The position numbers and the translations under genes were made by a program. Shown here piece by piece: positions 28,543 to 38,676 of a stretch of DNA of 64,000 nt. The stretch is from an uncultured Acidimicrobiales bacterium (GTDB lineage: Bacteria > Actinomycetota > Acidimicrobiia > Acidimicrobiales > SHLQ01): contig CAKZVC010000059.1 of assembly GCA_937922235.1 (NCBI GenBank), positions 1-64,000 of the forward strand, read 5' to 3'. The notes under the pieces are model-generated. The model had not been told where the DNA came from, did not search any database, and worked only from the letters and a program-made list of their open reading frames with translations. Each line of letters opens with the position of its first letter. The first letter of the stretch is position 1.

Positions 28543-31233
28543 ATGAAAAGCGCCAGCCGTTTACCGAGCATCACGATCTTGCTCAGCATCATTGGCGCTG
28601 CCCTTTTGCTGCCGCTCGGCTCGATCGCTATTACCCAATGGCAACAGGCTGAGCATCGCTACGACGCGGCAGTGCAAGTGGGTGAAAGCGCCGACCGACT
28701 CGACTCGCTGATCCGTCTTGCTCCAGCGATAGACCGAGAAAACCGCTCAACAACATGGAACTCGGGCGGCGAAAAGCTCCTCGGCGACCTTCCCCCAGAC
28801 ATCGTCGGCGTTCTCGGCACCGACTATGGCGCCTCGATGATGGACGATCGCGCCGCTGTCGATGCCCTCGTTTCTTGGTTGGGTGATGATGCACTTATGG
28901 CCGAGCTCGCCGATGTGCGCCGAAGCGCCGACGCTGGCAACCTTGGACTCTTCGATTCGGCTGCACGCTTTGACGTGGTGGGCGCCGAGGTCGAAACGCA
29001 GATTCACAACGAACTGACCCGACTTGGTCTGACGGCTGCGGACGCAGGCGACGATTCCATTGCCGAGGCGGCACGGGTGGCCGAAGCCACTGCTGCACTG
29101 CAGATAGCGGCATCTGGCCAACACGACAAATGGTCGCAGCTTCGAGTGAGCGAGTTTCTTGCTCCTGCGCCTTCAGATGTCACCAGCTTCGCGACCAACG
29201 TTGGCCTCCTCCGGGACCGCATGAGCGCGGTCGACCAAGTGATCGACCCCAACTCAGCCGCTGGCCAAAACTGGGAAGCCCTCCGCTCAAGCCCTGAAAC
29301 CGCCGAGTTGTTCGAGCTCTACGACGCAACGATTCTCAACTTCACGCTCAATGGCCTCCCAGCAAGTGACGTCCAGGCCGAACAGCTCGATCTCACGAAC
29401 GTTGCGATTACCGACCTGCTGGCCGTTGCGGTCGAGGTCAATACCAGCCGGACGACCGCCGAGTCATTCGATGCTCAGCTTGCGACTGTTGGCGAGCTGA
29501 CGCTTAACGAGCTCGACGCCGCTGGCAAGGCTGGACTCGATGATGCCCAAGCCGATCGCAACCGAACACTTCTCTGGTTGCTCACCGCCGCCGGGCTTGT
29601 CGTGCTCGGCGTTGTTGCCCTTGTCGTGCTCATTGCCCGACCAGTGCGCAAGATGGCCGATGTGGCCGAGCAGCTCAGCGTGGGCCAGCTCGACGTCCAT
29701 CTCGAAGAATCAGGTCCGACGGAAATCCGCAATAGCGCACGAGCCATGAACCAAGCGCTCGAGTCGTTGCGCAACACCGAAGCCCAAGCGGTCGCGCTCG
29801 CCGAAGAACGCCTCGACGACCCCATTCTCGAAGCTCGTTCGGTGGGAGGAATCGGCGAATCGCTCCAAACCGCAGTTGCCAGACTCGCAACCTCGCTTAC
29901 CGAACGCGAGAGCTTCCAGCAGAAGCTCGCACACGAGGCCGCTCACGACGGCCTCACCAAAATCTCAAATCGCAACGCGATCCTTCGCCACCTCGACGCG
30001 GCACTCGCTCGAACCCGTCGCTCGTCGTCATCGCTTGCAATTCTGTTCCTCGATATCGACGACTTCAAGACCATCAACGATGTGCACGGACATCAGGCTG
30101 GCGACGCCGTCCTACGAAACGTCGCTACTCGCCTGGTTGGAGTCATTCGCGACGGAGACCTCGCGGGACGTATGGGCGGCGACGAATTCGTGGTTGTCGC
30201 TGAAGCGGTTGAGGACATCGATGAGGCACTTCGTCTCAGCGACCGGATCGTCAGCGCAATTAGCGAGCCCGTCACGTTCGACGGTGGCACGTTCGAGCCG
30301 AGCCTCAGCATCGGTGTCGCTATCGCCGATGGCGAGCTGTCGGCCGACGAGCTGCTGCGCGATGCCGACCTGGCCGTCTACCGAGCAAAGTCACTCGGCA
30401 AGGGCCGTACAGAAGTTTGCGACGAGGATCTCCGCGGTGAGGTGCGCGAACGCGAGACGATCGAACGCGAGCTCGAGGCCGCAATCGATGATGGCCAGTT
30501 CGTGTTGCACTTCCAACCATCGGTGGATGCCATCAACCACAAGATCACGTCGTTTGAGGCACTCATCCGTTGGAACCATCCAACACGCGGCGTTGTTGGA
30601 CCTATGGAGTTCATCCCAATCGCCGAGCGAACCAATTTGATTGCTCGCATTGATCGCTGGGTCCTCGACGCCGCATCAGCGCAACTCGCCGCGTGGACCG
30701 ACCACCCAGACTTCGGCAGCCATCCAGTGGCCGTCAACATTTCGGGCCGACACCTCGGTAGCGGCACGCTCACCGACGACGTGTTGGACGCACTGAACGA
30801 TCACGAGGTCGACCCACGCCGCATGCTTCTCGAAGTCACCGAGACGGCGCTGCTCGCCGATCTCGTCACTGCGGGCCGCGAGCTCACCCTTCTGCGTGAG
30901 GCCGGGGTTCGTGTGGCACTCGACGACTTTGGTACCGGGTACATGTCGCTCTCGCACTTGCGGGGCCTACCGGTTGATGTGCTCAAGATCGACCAAACGT
31001 TCATTGCCGAAATGGCCGATGACAGCGATCATCCACTGATCAGGCTCATTATCGACACGGGCCACTTGCTCGGTGTGGACGTCACAGCCGAGGGTGTCGA
31101 AACCTCGACACAAGCCTCGACCCTTACCGCAATGGGCGTCGACAGCCTGCAGGGCTTCCTCTTTGGACGGCCGGTCGATTCCACCTCGGTCAAGGCTGAC
31201 GCTGACACGGTTTCCCCTCAGTTAGAGGCCTAA
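28543..31233 (+). CDS. membrane GGDEF-EAL cyclic-di-GMP turnover protein
   Basis: This 896-residue protein is anchored by TM helices at about 8-28 and 344-366, flanking a ~310-residue extracytoplasmic helical sensor of nitrate-sensor-like type. A HAMP-like linker follows. The GGDEF domain has an intact GGDEF at about 546 and the inhibitory I-site RDGD five residues before it. The EAL domain has FEALIRWNHP at about 672, VTETALL and DDFGTGYMSL. Both domains keep their signature residues, so synthesis and hydrolysis are both possible. AGAGGGGA precedes the ATG. It is the first of the c-di-GMP genes in this window. Confidence 0.93.
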   Translation: MKSASRLPSITILLSIIGAALLLPLGSIAITQWQQAEHRYDAAVQVGESADRLDSLIRLAPAIDRENRSTTWNSGGEKLLGDLPPDIVGVLGTDYGASMMDDRAAVDALVSWLGDDALMAELADVRRSADAGNLGLFDSAARFDVVGAEVETQIHNELTRLGLTAADAGDDSIAEAARVAEATAALQIAASGQHDKWSQLRVSEFLAPAPSDVTSFATNVGLLRDRMSAVDQVIDPNSAAGQNWEALRSSPETAELFELYDATILNFTLNGLPASDVQAEQLDLTNVAITDLLAVAVEVNTSRTTAESFDAQLATVGELTLNELDAAGKAGLDDAQADRNRTLLWLLTAAGLVVLGVVALVVLIARPVRKMADVAEQLSVGQLDVHLEESGPTEIRNSARAMNQALESLRNTEAQAVALAEERLDDPILEARSVGGIGESLQTAVARLATSLTERESFQQKLAHEAAHDGLTKISNRNAILRHLDAALARTRRSSSSLAILFLDIDDFKTINDVHGHQAGDAVLRNVATRLVGVIRDGDLAGRMGGDEFVVVAEAVEDIDEALRLSDRIVSAISEPVTFDGGTFEPSLSIGVAIADGELSADELLRDADLAVYRAKSLGKGRTEVCDEDLRGEVRERETIERELEAAIDDGQFVLHFQPSVDAINHKITSFEALIRWNHPTRGVVGPMEFIPIAERTNLIARIDRWVLDAASAQLAAWTDHPDFGSHPVAVNISGRHLGSGTLTDDVLDALNDHEVDPRRMLLEVTETALLADLVTAGRELTLLREAGVRVALDDFGTGYMSLSHLRGLPVDVLKIDQTFIAEMADDSDHPLIRLIIDTGHLLGVDVTAEGVETSTQASTLTAMGVDSLQGFLFGRPVDSTSVKADADTVSPQLEA

Positions 31234-31335: not shown

Positions 31336-32568
31336 GTGGGATCAGTTCGACGTCCAGCGGGCATTGCGTGCATTCTCAGCGCACTCATCCTGTTGTTGCT
31401 CAATAGCCCAGCGTTCGCGCAGGCCACCATCACCGTTATCGACTCGGGTGGTTCCGATGAGCTTGTAGCCCCGCCCGAGCCGAGGTGTGACGATCTGGTC
31501 TTCATCACCGAGGTCACGTTCAACGCTGCAGGCGTGCCAGTTGGCGTCCCACGCCTTGGTGTTGGCCCCGACCTCGTGACCAGCTTCGTCGTGCCCGACT
31601 TTGAACCGATCGGGCCCAGCATCATTGCCCTGAATGAAGTCATTACGTTCGATGGGCATGCCGGTCGCGACATTTGGCCCGCACAGCTCAACGAGCGGGT
31701 CCAGTTCGAGTTTCTGCTCGACGGCGAGGTTCAGGCAGTCACCCCGTTCACTCCCGATCTTCCCGACGACACCGTGTCGGCATGGCTTGATCTCGACCTG
31801 GGCACCTATGAACTTCCCAAGGGAGCCGATGCCCTTCGCATCGTCCACTTCGGAGACCCCAACAACACCGACTCAGTGGTTGTCTCGGCCCTTTGTGGCA
31901 CGACGATCGACATCCCGACGGAAACAACGACGACCGTTGTTCCAGACACAACCGTTTGCCCAGAGACACCAGCGTCTCCTGACGGCGACGACCCGGACAC
32001 CACCGTTGCGCCTGGCACGGATTGCCCGGACACCACGGTTGTGCCCGATCGGACCGATTGTCCAGGGACCCCGGCTTCGCCGGACGATACGAGCGATCCG
32101 GACGGCATTGTTGAGCTAGACGGCACCGATTGCCCGGACACCACGGTTGTGCCCGAGACGACGGTCGCTCCAGAAACGACAGTTGCTCCAGACACCACGG
32201 TCCAGCCCACGGTGGCCCCGACGACGATCGTGCGGGACACCGTTGCCCCTGAGACAACAGTGGCTCCTGAGACGACAGTGGCTCCGGAAACGACTGTTGC
32301 ACCTACAACGTCCGAGGCTCCAACCACGACTGCTGCTCCTACAACAACCGCAGCGCCGACGACCACGACCGCCCCAACAACGACAGCCGTAGCTGACCCT
32401 GAGGTGGAGGTAGAGGTTGAGGGTGTCGTCGAGACACGTAGTGGCGATCTGCTCGCCGCAACCGGTTCATCGCACGACCTTGGCATCTCGTTCATTGCCG
32501 CTGGCCTTGTACTTCTCGGATGCGCATTGCTGCTTCAGTCGAAAGATCCCGAGGAGCTGTTCAGCTAG
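31336..32568 (+). CDS. Thr/Pro-rich cell-wall-anchored surface protein (LAATG sorting signal)
   Basis: This 410-residue exported protein has a signal peptide ending in SPAFAQA and a beta-rich domain of about 160 residues. A Thr/Pro/Val/Ala stalk with repeats of the VAPETT and PTTTAA kinds (residues about 195-350) follows. The C-terminal sorting signal is LAATG at 373-377, a hydrophobic span and a short charged tail. LAxTG is the class E sortase motif of high-GC Gram-positives. The start is GTG 31336 with GAGAGG upstream. No sortase gene is in the window. The short folded domain on a long stalk suggests a surface-display role. Confidence 0.8.
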   Translation: MGSVRRPAGIACILSALILLLLNSPAFAQATITVIDSGGSDELVAPPEPRCDDLVFITEVTFNAAGVPVGVPRLGVGPDLVTSFVVPDFEPIGPSIIALNEVITFDGHAGRDIWPAQLNERVQFEFLLDGEVQAVTPFTPDLPDDTVSAWLDLDLGTYELPKGADALRIVHFGDPNNTDSVVVSALCGTTIDIPTETTTTVVPDTTVCPETPASPDGDDPDTTVAPGTDCPDTTVVPDRTDCPGTPASPDDTSDPDGIVELDGTDCPDTTVVPETTVAPETTVAPDTTVQPTVAPTTIVRDTVAPETTVAPETTVAPETTVAPTTSEAPTTTAAPTTTAAPTTTTAPTTTAVADPEVEVEVEGVVETRSGDLLAATGSSHDLGISFIAAGLVLLGCALLLQSKDPEELFS

Positions 32569-34726: not shown

Positions 34727-35299
34727 TTGGCGATAATCGACATTGCAGGTTTCATCACCGACCTGAAGGACCACGCGACCCACCACGGATTTCACGTGCA
34801 TGACGAACGCCATTTCGTCGAGACCTATTCGATGCGCCAGGCCTTCGAAGTTGACCTGCATCCCGAGCACGCCTGCGGCGGTCCACTCGACCTGCACTTG
34901 TCACTCGAGATCGACCCGCGGATGATGCTGGCGTTCGAGGACGAGGTGTACGCACTCCCCGACCCGGGCGAGTCCCCATCGGAGGACCTGCGGTTTCCGC
35001 TGCTGTTCACCTGGAGCCTCCCGCCACTGGTCAATGGCCCGGACCTGCTGGTGCTCGCCACAGAACTTGCCGGTGTCGGCGGCCCAGATCTTCCGCTCGA
35101 TATCAGCGCCGTCGATGGGTTTGCCGCAGTCACTGACGCCCCTGAACGAAGCCTGAACGTGGTTGCCCGAGTCGAGCTTCCTCTCGCCCGTATTTATCTC
35201 GGCGAAGACGACCTCTGCGATGTACTCGATCGATGCCACGCCGTGAGCGACTACCTCCTCGACCGGGCTGCAATGTGGCTTGGCGAAGGCCTCGCGTAG
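34727..35299 (+). CDS. hypothetical protein, mixed alpha/beta
   Basis: This is a 190-residue soluble protein that I do not recognise. It is acidic, with alternating strands and helices (FEVDLHPEHACGGPLDLHLS, then LLFTWSLPPLV, and RVELPLARIYLGEDDLCD), and no signal peptide or TM. It starts at TTG 34727 with AAGGAAA at proper spacing. It is divergent from the phosphatase gene. Confidence 0.65.
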   Translation: MAIIDIAGFITDLKDHATHHGFHVHDERHFVETYSMRQAFEVDLHPEHACGGPLDLHLSLEIDPRMMLAFEDEVYALPDPGESPSEDLRFPLLFTWSLPPLVNGPDLLVLATELAGVGGPDLPLDISAVDGFAAVTDAPERSLNVVARVELPLARIYLGEDDLCDVLDRCHAVSDYLLDRAAMWLGEGLA

Positions 35300-35844: not shown

Positions 35845-38490
35845 TTACCAGCAGCTCGGCTGTGAAGTAGACGAACCGTTCGGGCAGATCGTTTGGTTGT
35901 AGATCGCGTTTTCTGGCTCTGCTGGCCTACCTGTCGCGTTCGTGAACGAGGCTGACGTCAGATTGGCCGACACGATCCACAGCCCACCATTCCCAAGCTG
36001 GGTCTCGTGAAGCGCGCTGCCCTTAGCGTTCGCACTTCGGATCGACGAGTCGACGAACGACGAGCCGTTGAAGGTGGTGTTCTGAATGCTGGCGGCGTTG
36101 AAGTCCCAGTTTCGGAACTCGACGCCACGGAACGAGCTCTTGTCGAGGGATGCAGTGATCATTGTGCCGTCTGCCATCGTTGACCCGTCGAACACCGCCG
36201 GACCCGTCGTCTCGGTCATGTTGATGTTCTGCATCGTGGTGTTCGAGAAGCTCGCGTTGGTGATGCGCGCTTGGTAGAAGTCACCATCGATGATCTTCGC
36301 CGAGGCAAACGTGGCATTGGTGAGGTCTGAATAGGCGAACGTTGCTTCATTGAGCGTCGTTCCGTCGAACTTTGCGGTCATGAGGCCAGCACCGTCGAAA
36401 CCAACGCGTGTGATTTGCGCGTTTGTCGCAATCAAGCCATTCGCGGGGACATTCAAGAAGTTCGACGTCGTGATGGTCGAACCAGCGATGCTGACATTGT
36501 TCATCTTGGAACCGCTGAAGCCAACGTTTGTAATCGTGGAAAAGCTGAGGTCAGCGTTTGGCATCGTCGCGGAGATTCCAGTGTCCGTAATCGTTGCGCC
36601 GCGGAAGACTGCTCGTGTCATGTTCACCGAGTTGAGGCCCGTTCTCTTGATCTCTGCATCGGTAAACACCGCATCGGTGAGATCGACCGAGTTGAAGACC
36701 GCCCCGTCGATCGTCGCAAAGGAAAAATCGGCGCCGACGAAGCTACCGCCGTCAAAGACCGTGCCGTCACCAAATGTTGTCCGACTGAGGTTTGCCCCGC
36801 GAAAGTCGGCGTTGACGAACTTCACCCCGACCAGGTCGCAGCTGCTGAGATTCGCTCCACTGAGCTCCAAATCGCCAGATCGGGCCCGTTCACAGTCGCT
36901 CGGTGGGGTGATCGTCGTCGTGGCCGTTTGCTGCAGTGTCGTCGTTGTGTCCCGGCGCGTGATCGTGGTGGAGGTAGCGGTGGTTGTTGTTGTGGTAACC
37001 CGAGGGGCAACGGTGACTCGAGGAGCGTTGGAAACTCGAGGTGCCGTAGTGATACGCGGGGCATTCGGGCTGTTGTCTGCAGGGTGCACAACCGCACCTG
37101 ACGCTGGGGAGTTCACCGTCGTTGTCGTCTCTGTTTCAAGCGAGCTCGTCGTCGACTCCGGGGCCGGGGATGGTGCGCGGCCTTCCACAGCAGCCGGGGC
37201 GGTCGTGACAACGATGGTTGTTGGAGTTGGCCCGCCGTCCTCGATGGCCACCACCTCTATGCCCGCGGCGGGAAACTCCGGCTGCTCGACTTCAGCCACG
37301 GGTACGTCATTGATAGGGGTATCGTCCACAAGGGCAATGGCCTCGGGCTGATCGTCGAACACAACGAAGCCATCGGTGACAACCGTGGCGCCAGTAGCCG
37401 TTGCTAGGGTTACGACAGTTGCCGCGACGGTCTGCGCTATCGGGGTCGTCACCGCGGTTCCGAGGAAGGGAATCTGAGCGGCCCACGACAGGGGCCACAT
37501 CGCTCGACGCAACCGACCGAGGCTGATGCTCATGAAGGCACGAACAACGTCGGGGTCGAACTGCGTGCCCGCGTTGTCGGCGAGCTCCTGCCGGGCAAAC
37601 TCCGGGGGCAACGGCTTCTTGTACGAGCGTGCTGCGGTGATCACGTCGTACGCGTCTGCCACCGACACAATTCGACCGGCCAGACTGATATCGGTACCCG
37701 CAAGACCCTTGGGATATCCCCCACCATCGAACCGTTCATGGTGCTCGCCAATCGCACCGATCCACTCACCGAGGTACTCCGCGAGCGGTGCGGCGATCTT
37801 CATCCCCTCATCGGGGTGCGTCTTGATGATGTCGACCTCTTCATCGGTGAGCCGACCAGGCTTGGTCAGGATCCCTTCATCGATCCGAAGCTTGCCAACG
37901 TCGTGGATGAGGCCGGCCCACTGCAGCTTGTTGCTGTCCTCGGGGCTGAGCTTCATCTCCTCAGCAATCAGCGCGGTGAAAGCCCTGACGCGCTCGGAAT
38001 GCCCTCGAGTCAACCTGTCGTGCTCAGAAAGTAGCGCCGCAAGTTCAACAATACGCGTGGCCGCTTCGGCTTCAGTGCCTGAGAACTCTCCCGCCTCAGC
38101 TTCACGTAACCGCTGTTCGAGCTTCTTCGTGTTACCGGAACGAAGGGCCACCGCAAAGCGAGATGGAGCCTGATCGGGGAAGACCAACGACAGGCGGAAC
38201 AACGTCGCGAGCGGCAAGAACTTCCGGGCTCCCTTATCGGCATAGTGAGCCACAGCAAGAGCAATAACCGCCAAGACACCGAATCGGCCAAGCGCGCCAG
38301 GAACCGTTGCCGGCACTGGCCACCTACTGGCCAACATCCACGTGACGACGAGACTCAGGAGAATCGGGATGAGGAACACGATCGTTCGAACACCAAAGGC
38401 AAGCCACGGGCTATCGCCCCAGCTGTTTGCGTCACCGCCAGACGCTCGGCTTTTCTCCTCGACGGTCGCCGTCGGTGGCACTTCACTCAC
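35845..38490 (-). CDS. HD-GYP domain membrane protein with extracytoplasmic pentapeptide-repeat solenoid
   Basis: This is an 881-residue protein. Two N-terminal TM helices (about 35-53 and 68-83) put an HD-GYP domain in the cytoplasm: HSERV near 164, H196-D197 in LIHDVGK, H250-H251-E and GGGYP at 256-260. These residues support c-di-GMP (or related dinucleotide) hydrolysis. A third hydrophobic segment (about 338-375) crosses out, followed by a Thr/Pro-rich stalk (about 420-530). About 320 residues of pentapeptide repeats then form a predicted right-handed beta-helix (SGANLSSCDLVGVKFVNADF style). The C-terminus has two Cys. The outside solenoid on an intracellular phosphodiesterase is unusual. 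Confidence 0.85.
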   Translation of the reverse strand: MSEVPPTATVEEKSRASGGDANSWGDSPWLAFGVRTIVFLIPILLSLVVTWMLASRWPVPATVPGALGRFGVLAVIALAVAHYADKGARKFLPLATLFRLSLVFPDQAPSRFAVALRSGNTKKLEQRLREAEAGEFSGTEAEAATRIVELAALLSEHDRLTRGHSERVRAFTALIAEEMKLSPEDSNKLQWAGLIHDVGKLRIDEGILTKPGRLTDEEVDIIKTHPDEGMKIAAPLAEYLGEWIGAIGEHHERFDGGGYPKGLAGTDISLAGRIVSVADAYDVITAARSYKKPLPPEFARQELADNAGTQFDPDVVRAFMSISLGRLRRAMWPLSWAAQIPFLGTAVTTPIAQTVAATVVTLATATGATVVTDGFVVFDDQPEAIALVDDTPINDVPVAEVEQPEFPAAGIEVVAIEDGGPTPTTIVVTTAPAAVEGRAPSPAPESTTSSLETETTTTVNSPASGAVVHPADNSPNAPRITTAPRVSNAPRVTVAPRVTTTTTTATSTTITRRDTTTTLQQTATTTITPPSDCERARSGDLELSGANLSSCDLVGVKFVNADFRGANLSRTTFGDGTVFDGGSFVGADFSFATIDGAVFNSVDLTDAVFTDAEIKRTGLNSVNMTRAVFRGATITDTGISATMPNADLSFSTITNVGFSGSKMNNVSIAGSTITTSNFLNVPANGLIATNAQITRVGFDGAGLMTAKFDGTTLNEATFAYSDLTNATFASAKIIDGDFYQARITNASFSNTTMQNINMTETTGPAVFDGSTMADGTMITASLDKSSFRGVEFRNWDFNAASIQNTTFNGSSFVDSSIRSANAKGSALHETQLGNGGLWIVSANLTSASFTNATGRPAEPENAIYNQTICPNGSSTSQPSCW

Positions 38491-38603
38491 TTAGATGTGA
38501 TCGGCGACATTTCGTTTCCGGAAAATGGGCCATTTGCCCTCAGGCCTGCGGAAATCGCTAGATCATGCGCGCACAGCCCGCCACATCGCGGGAAGACACC
38601 AAG

Positions 38604-38676
38604 TAGGCCCGGTGAGAATTGAACTCACGACCGAGCGATTATGAGTCGCCTGCTCTAACCACTGAGCTACGGGCCC
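38604..38676 (-). tRNA. tRNA with CAT anticodon, probably tRNA-Ile2
   Basis: A 73-nt cloverleaf on the minus strand. Acceptor GGGCCCG/CGGGCCT, D-arm TAGCTCAGTGGTTAGAGC, anticodon stem GGCGA/TCGCT with loop CTCATAA, and T-arm GTGAG/CTCAC. The D-arm and anticodon arm resemble E. coli tRNA-Ile2 (ileX) more than elongator Met, so a lysidine-modified Ile reading AUA is likely. Elongator Met cannot be fully excluded. The 112 bp to its right-hand-lower neighbour (38491-38603) hold no gene. Confidence 0.85.

Follow-up and report, generated by a model that had tools for sequence, protein, structure and literature searches.

A putative HD-GYP phosphodiesterase with a pentapeptide-repeat ectodomain from an Acidimicrobiales bacterium, a member of a large ectodomain-swapping family

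The HD-GYP proteins PmGH (4MCW), PA4781 (4R8Z) and V-cGAP3 (5Z7C) have a common fold and share the metal ligands H...HD...H...HH...D and the GYP motif. HD-GYP proteins usually carry their sensor at the N-terminus; PmGH has a GAF sensor and an eighth ligand, E185. To our knowledge, PA4781 and V-cGAP3 are without a fused extracytoplasmic domain. An N-terminal output followed by a transmembrane (TM) segment and an extracellular C-terminal sensor is found in the PknB-type receptor kinases of Actinomycetota, in which the output is a kinase and the sensor consists of PASTA domains. The RsgI anti-sigma factors of Clostridium thermocellum combine a conserved N-terminal cytoplasmic output, which is an anti-sigma domain, with a TM segment, a trans-wall linker and divergent C-terminal sensors (including CBMs); they occur as multiple paralogs per genome and signal by autocleavage and RseP (PMC12203970). 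How surface contact leads to a change in c-di-GMP in bacteria is an open question, and most of the known devices have small or separate sensors. DvhD of Desulfovibrio and LapD are membrane proteins with a cytoplasmic c-di-GMP module and are tied to surface adhesion. Both are catalytically dead (DvhD has SQ instead of HD), have a small dCache or LapD/MoxY periplasmic domain, and work with a separate adhesin and protease; DvhD is itself an HD-GYP protein (PMC13090378). A pentapeptide-repeat protein that is located outside the cytoplasm is YjbI of Caulobacter. It is secreted in free form, has a signal peptide of its own and a charged tail at the C-terminus, and two Cys pairs flank its quadrilateral beta-helix (PMC12864828).

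The protein described here, P0001 (881 amino acids), is specified by a single open frame at 35845..38490 on the minus strand of the window, the 64,000-nucleotide stretch of DNA from an uncultured Acidimicrobiales bacterium that was analysed. It starts with GTG; GTG1 and GTG4 are both candidates, given a stop codon immediately upstream and the lack of a clear ribosome site. A tRNA-Met gene (38603..38676, minus strand) is located directly upstream and does not belong to the system. Pfam assigns HD_5 to residues 151-315 (E 1.4e-34) and the pentapeptide families PF00805/PF13599 to the region from residue 543 onward (E about 1e-24). The layout resembles that of the PknB-type kinases and that of RsgI, in that P0001 has its predicted dinucleotide phosphodiesterase output at the N-terminus and its putative sensor at the extracytoplasmic C-terminus; an anti-sigma N-terminal domain was not matched by Pfam in P0001. 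The same architecture, for which the sequence-only reading had suggested a search in relatives, is entirely retained in the proteins L045 and L046 of two other genomes. These are considered orthologs on the basis of synteny, which involves a methyltransferase, an inositol-monophosphatase-like gene and a 190-amino-acid gene. A chance fusion or an assembly artefact can thus be dismissed. The N-terminal parts of the two orthologs are 76% and 64% identical to that of P0001, against only 38% and ~27% for the ectodomains, which fits a constrained enzyme with an outer part that tracks a changing partner.

A protein search revealed many further occurrences per genome of the first ~370 residues of P0001, followed by different C-termini. 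P0001 belongs to a large family whose members swap ectodomains, a point that had escaped the sequence-only reading and that we regard as the more important finding. The common part, here called the chassis, is a membrane HD-GYP unit of ~350 residues. An alignment of its N-terminal membrane part only (A2), from which the HD-GYP domain was excluded, served as a specific probe. Matches to A2 were obtained in all 19 genomes of the family to which the window belongs (1-12 copies each), in 30 of 247 sampled genomes of the class, and in 21 of 296 genomes of the phylum, in the latter mostly with one to three copies and including 3 marginal matches at E about 1e-3. Among named records, the full chassis occurred in MAGs labelled Acidimicrobiales or Acidimicrobiaceae, Actinomycetes/Actinomycetota, Thermoleophilia and 'Dormiibacterota'. 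A family in which one membrane enzyme is joined to many outer domains has apparently not been described before. Descriptions of HD-GYP domains fused to pentapeptide repeats or cadherin, or present in Acidimicrobiia/Ilumatobacter, were not found in the open-licence literature, which is weak evidence, and the main text of a recent review on sensory inputs of c-di-GMP proteins does not contain the word 'pentapeptide' (PMC8846402).

From 80 fetched stretches, 85 chassis proteins were recovered, with ectodomains of ~130 to 2,154 residues; the classes given below rest in part on Pfam and in part on motifs of our own, and frames truncated by MAG assembly were flagged and left out of most class counts. 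The 23 giant ectodomains contain cadherin-like and Big_9 domains, together with LTD in 10, FG-GAP in 3 and CshA repeats in 4 of them. Among the 60 shorter ones are Big_9 (16), pentapeptide (5), LTD (4), CBM6 and CBM35 (3 each) and PKD (1) ectodomains, and NHL beta-propellers also occur on the chassis. About eleven further ectodomains share a domain of ~150 residues with two Cys residues, mostly ending in a RIFTAC-like motif (carried by, e.g., L042, L062, L075, L076, L083, L089, L078, L114 and L124). It gave no Pfam match in L042, the one member that was scanned singly, and is possibly a new extracytoplasmic domain. In some members, such as L119 and L102, the ectodomain consists of a linker only. 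The genome of the window itself specifies, on contig C3, a 2,530-residue frame (L041:3129-10718, plus strand) in which at least 11 cadherin stretches and lamin-tail domains come after the chassis; the ectodomain of this putative phosphodiesterase has ~2,150 residues. Other chassis frames in this genome are L040 (860 residues, cadherin-like) and three shorter ones (L039, L042 and L043). Like the RsgI factors, the family thus has one membrane chassis that bears variable extracellular domains, the putative sensors, at its C-terminus.

On a tree of 89 chassis sequences the ectodomain class changes at least 25 times, a count that uses coarse classes and a quick tree with 23 open forks, whereas 47-57 changes were obtained with shuffled labels. 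The ectodomains are therefore inherited, though often exchanged. The 5 pentapeptide members do not form one clade (AU p = 0.0014), and one of them, L072, falls into a clade made up of Ig-like and RIFTAC members. As judged from these sequences, pentapeptide ectodomains have been gained at least twice.

The HD-GYP domain of P0001 (residues 151-315; 37546..38040, minus strand) was delimited by Pfam and was modelled by AlphaFold, from a 28-row alignment, with a pLDDT mostly above 90. Foldseek matches of the enzyme domain include DvhD, PmGH, 9rbz and PA4781 (4r8z; E 6e-10, TM 0.74 (TMt)), and a profile match to 5z7c had an E of 6e-62. In an alignment with PmGH, seven of its eight metal ligands are present. 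H164, H196, D197, H225, H250 and H251 are invariant in 41 of 41 diverse relatives and D279 is present in 40 of them. The GYP motif (HHExxDGxGYP) reads HHERFDGGGYP at residues 250-260. The signature residues that had been called intact from the sequence (H196-D197, H250-H251-E252 and GGGYP at 256-260) are all where they had been placed. Retention of the catalytic ligands over 41 diverged relatives points to selection for turnover, and the half of P0001 inside the cell looks like a working c-di-GMP-degrading enzyme. The eighth ligand, the Glu of the trinuclear subclass, is replaced by Leu160, and this position is mostly Leu, Arg or Met across the chassis family. Where this Glu is absent, the HD-GYP domain is dinuclear, and hydrolysis is presumed to stop after its first step (PMC8177086). 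P0001 is thus predicted to be of the dinuclear class and to yield pGpG from c-di-GMP. A further residue, H157 (at about 38020-38022), located 7 residues before the metal ligand H164, is invariant in 41 of 41 chassis proteins; it is specific to this lineage and is not conserved in ordinary HD-GYP domains.

Hydropathy peaks of P0001 are located at residues ~28-56, ~62-85 and ~345-375. The first two correspond to TM1 (residues 28-56; 38323..38409, minus strand) and TM2 (residues 63-90; 38221..38304, minus strand), both predicted as helices of exactly these limits by AlphaFold. TM2 is followed by a basic cytoplasmic loop, and the chassis signature FLPLATLFRLSLVFPDQAPSRFAVALRSGNT with its flanks (residues ~81-117; 38140..38250, minus strand) is conserved across the paralogs in A2. 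TM3 (residues ~350-372; 37375..37443, minus strand) is rich in Ala, Thr and Val and weakly hydrophobic, with a maximum 19-residue mean of 1.5; it has a basic inside and an acidic outside flank. AlphaFold gives a low-confidence helix at 350-366, disorder at 367-528 and a beta-helix from ~540. The Thr/Pro-rich linker (residues 391-530; 36901..37320, minus strand), predicted to be disordered, forms a stalk of ~140 residues, with 34 Thr in the segment 400-530. The third TM segment and the Thr-rich stalk of the sequence-only reading were both recovered in this way.

A cytoplasmic HD-GYP domain and extracytoplasmic pentapeptide repeats, as had been proposed before, are well supported by sequence features of P0001 and its relatives. 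All 4 Cys residues of P0001 are located in the ectodomain and residues 1-532 contain none. In 67 complete chassis proteins, frames truncated by the assembly having been left out, the Cys number was even in 48 of the 49 Cys-bearing ectodomains, the sole exception (L094 4361-5695) looking like a frameshifted gene; the cytoplasmic chassis of the same proteins had an even number in 12 and an odd number in 34 cases. As the proteins are related, the ectodomains were also clustered, which gave 14 even and 0 odd clusters and 8 without Cys. In 89 relatives taken together, 121 K/R and 49 D/E lie in the 25 residues preceding TM3, against 38 K/R and 380 D/E in the 25 that follow it. In addition, two proteins of a sister genus, without an HD-GYP domain, combine lipoprotein-like starts with a Cys-capped pentapeptide end of the same kind, and the secreted YjbI has two such flanking Cys pairs. 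A location of the repeats in the cytoplasm, which would have overturned the earlier proposal, is contradicted by the Cys placement and parity, by the charges around TM3, and by the lipoprotein-like proteins.

The pentapeptide domain (residues 533-880; 35851..36894, minus strand) is, according to Pfam and AlphaFold, a beta-helix of ~310 residues with the A(D/N)LXX repeats of four-sided beta-helices. Modelled alone and without an alignment, the ectodomain again gave a four-sided beta-helix, whose first ~240 residues had a mean pLDDT of about 70-96; the model is unreliable in the C-terminal third. Foldseek matches of the ectodomain include HetL (3du1; E 2e-6), Qnr, AlbG and designed pentapeptide solenoids. 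The Cys residues form the pairs 533/551 and 869/880, one at each end of the solenoid, and L045, L046, L047 and L072 likewise have 4 ectodomain Cys residues each. P0001 shares the two flanking pairs with YjbI, but here the pentapeptide domain is tethered to an HD-GYP domain, lies behind an internal TM helix and has ...QPSCW as its C-terminus, without a secretion signal of its own or a charged C-terminal tail. Weak NCBIfam hits to Qnr/MfpA (gyrase protection in the cytoplasm) and hits to the type III effectors PipB2/SopA were rejected, as their scores are far below the cut-offs and the topology is wrong; the effectors have only the repeat type in common with P0001.

We consider P0001 to be a receptor-type c-di-GMP phosphodiesterase with an N-terminal output and a C-terminal sensor, in which binding on the outside alters hydrolysis, with a probability of roughly 0.58; its activity, its ligand and the direction of signalling are inferred. 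TM1, TM2 and TM3 would hold the HD-GYP domain, which lies between TM2 and TM3, on the cytoplasmic face, and the Thr-rich stalk would let the disulfide-capped solenoid reach across the cell wall or past it. In the pentapeptide version, the flexible stalk would bear a rigid rod of about 15 coils and about 7 nm, assuming 20 residues and 0.48 nm per coil. The ectodomain may bind a polysaccharide, a wall component, a surface or a neighbour. Such binding would change how the TM helices and the HD-GYP dimer are packed and in this way alter the hydrolysis of c-di-GMP to pGpG. With many ectodomains on one chassis, different outside contacts could feed the same second messenger; contact with a surface or polysaccharide would fit the adhesin-like and carbohydrate-binding ectodomains. 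That sensing or attachment is coupled to dinucleotide turnover had already been proposed for P0001 itself, and the idea gains support from the family, in which cadherin, CBM, PKD, CshA-type and beta-propeller ectodomains all occur on one chassis. More tentatively, the family may represent lineage-expanded one-piece receptors of Actinomycetota, in which an HD-GYP chassis has been refitted with adhesin-like or carbohydrate-binding ectodomains of up to ~2,150 residues to convert contact into c-di-GMP hydrolysis, with the motif PPxAIAF behind TM3 as a coupling or cleavage element. Several points speak against the receptor reading: TM3 is weak, a conformational signal would be poorly transmitted by a long disordered linker, the linker-only members argue against a folded sensor being required in every case, and the motif following TM3 could be a processing site that uncouples the two halves.

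Signalling could also run in the opposite direction, the HD-GYP domain sensing (and degrading) c-di-GMP and thereby controlling how an adhesive ectodomain is presented, clustered or released, in the way of LapD and DvhD. Many of the ectodomains are indeed adhesin-like (cadherin-like, CshA repeat, Big_9), and the HD-GYP receptor DvhD acts inside-out on adhesins (PMC13090378). Both model proteins are catalytically dead, however, and P0001 differs from them in its intact ligands, kept throughout the diverged relatives, which makes this explanation unlikely. P0001 also differs from both in its large fused ectodomain.

A further explanation is a proteolytic switch at the motif behind TM3. In P0001 this motif reads PEAIALVD (residues 382-389; 37324..37347, minus strand), a relaxed form, with Leu replacing Phe, of the consensus PPxA[IVL]A[FY]x[DE] that is found about 10-20 residues past TM3 in most members of the order, whatever their ectodomain. 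It is strongly conserved within an otherwise fast-changing linker and could be a coupling element or a protease site. Cleavage at this site, constitutive or regulated, would shed a surface protein and change the enzyme, as in signalling of the RsgI/RseP type or processing by signal peptidase. The strict core [ILVPQ]A[FY] is present in 50 of 89 relatives, against a mean of 7.7 and a maximum of 16 upon shuffling, and the motif accompanies every main ectodomain type. It also shows A-x-A where a signal-peptidase site might lie, behind a weak TM segment, but a Phe directly after Ala is unusual for signal peptidase I. An autocleavage domain like that of RsgI, with which the chassis family shares its general layout (PMC12203970), was not detected, and several outgroup members are without the motif. 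Nor did ~710 kb of sequence from the same genome support a general sorting signal of Thr-rich membrane proteins: among 10 other frames with a TM segment and a Thr-rich region, the only automatic hit was LAF inside a hydrophobic stretch of L217, and L198 has PLAF after its TM segment. A proteolytic switch is therefore improbable in our opinion. Least credible of all is a merely structural or anchoring outer part, fused to a constitutive phosphodiesterase without any meaning for signalling: some members do lack a folded ectodomain and the ectodomains diverge fast, but a neutral fusion would hardly explain the repeated independent joining of diverse folded ectodomains and the 1-12 copies in every genome of the family.

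In this family a putative contact domain and its enzyme are present on one polypeptide in many natural versions, so that their coupling could be tested by domain swaps. The family would also provide the poorly studied Actinomycetota with a c-di-GMP sensory layout in which the output comes first and the sensor last.

The organism very probably makes c-di-GMP, as its genome specifies 32 GGDEF domains. One of these is part of a GGDEF-EAL protein with an extracytoplasmic sensor region (28543-31233, plus strand), 5 kb from the HD-GYP gene; a GGDEF protein is also present on the contig of the ortholog L045 (G007:C30). Downstream of the GGDEF-EAL gene, the window specifies a secreted Thr-rich protein (31336-32568, plus strand) with a C-terminal LAATG-like motif plus a TM segment, which resembles a sortase substrate. 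The 190-amino-acid gene in the syntenic region (34727-35299, plus strand) has no assigned function. Its product is 96-97% identical in two relatives, in which the proteins beside it are only 58-77% identical, and is thus unusually conserved.
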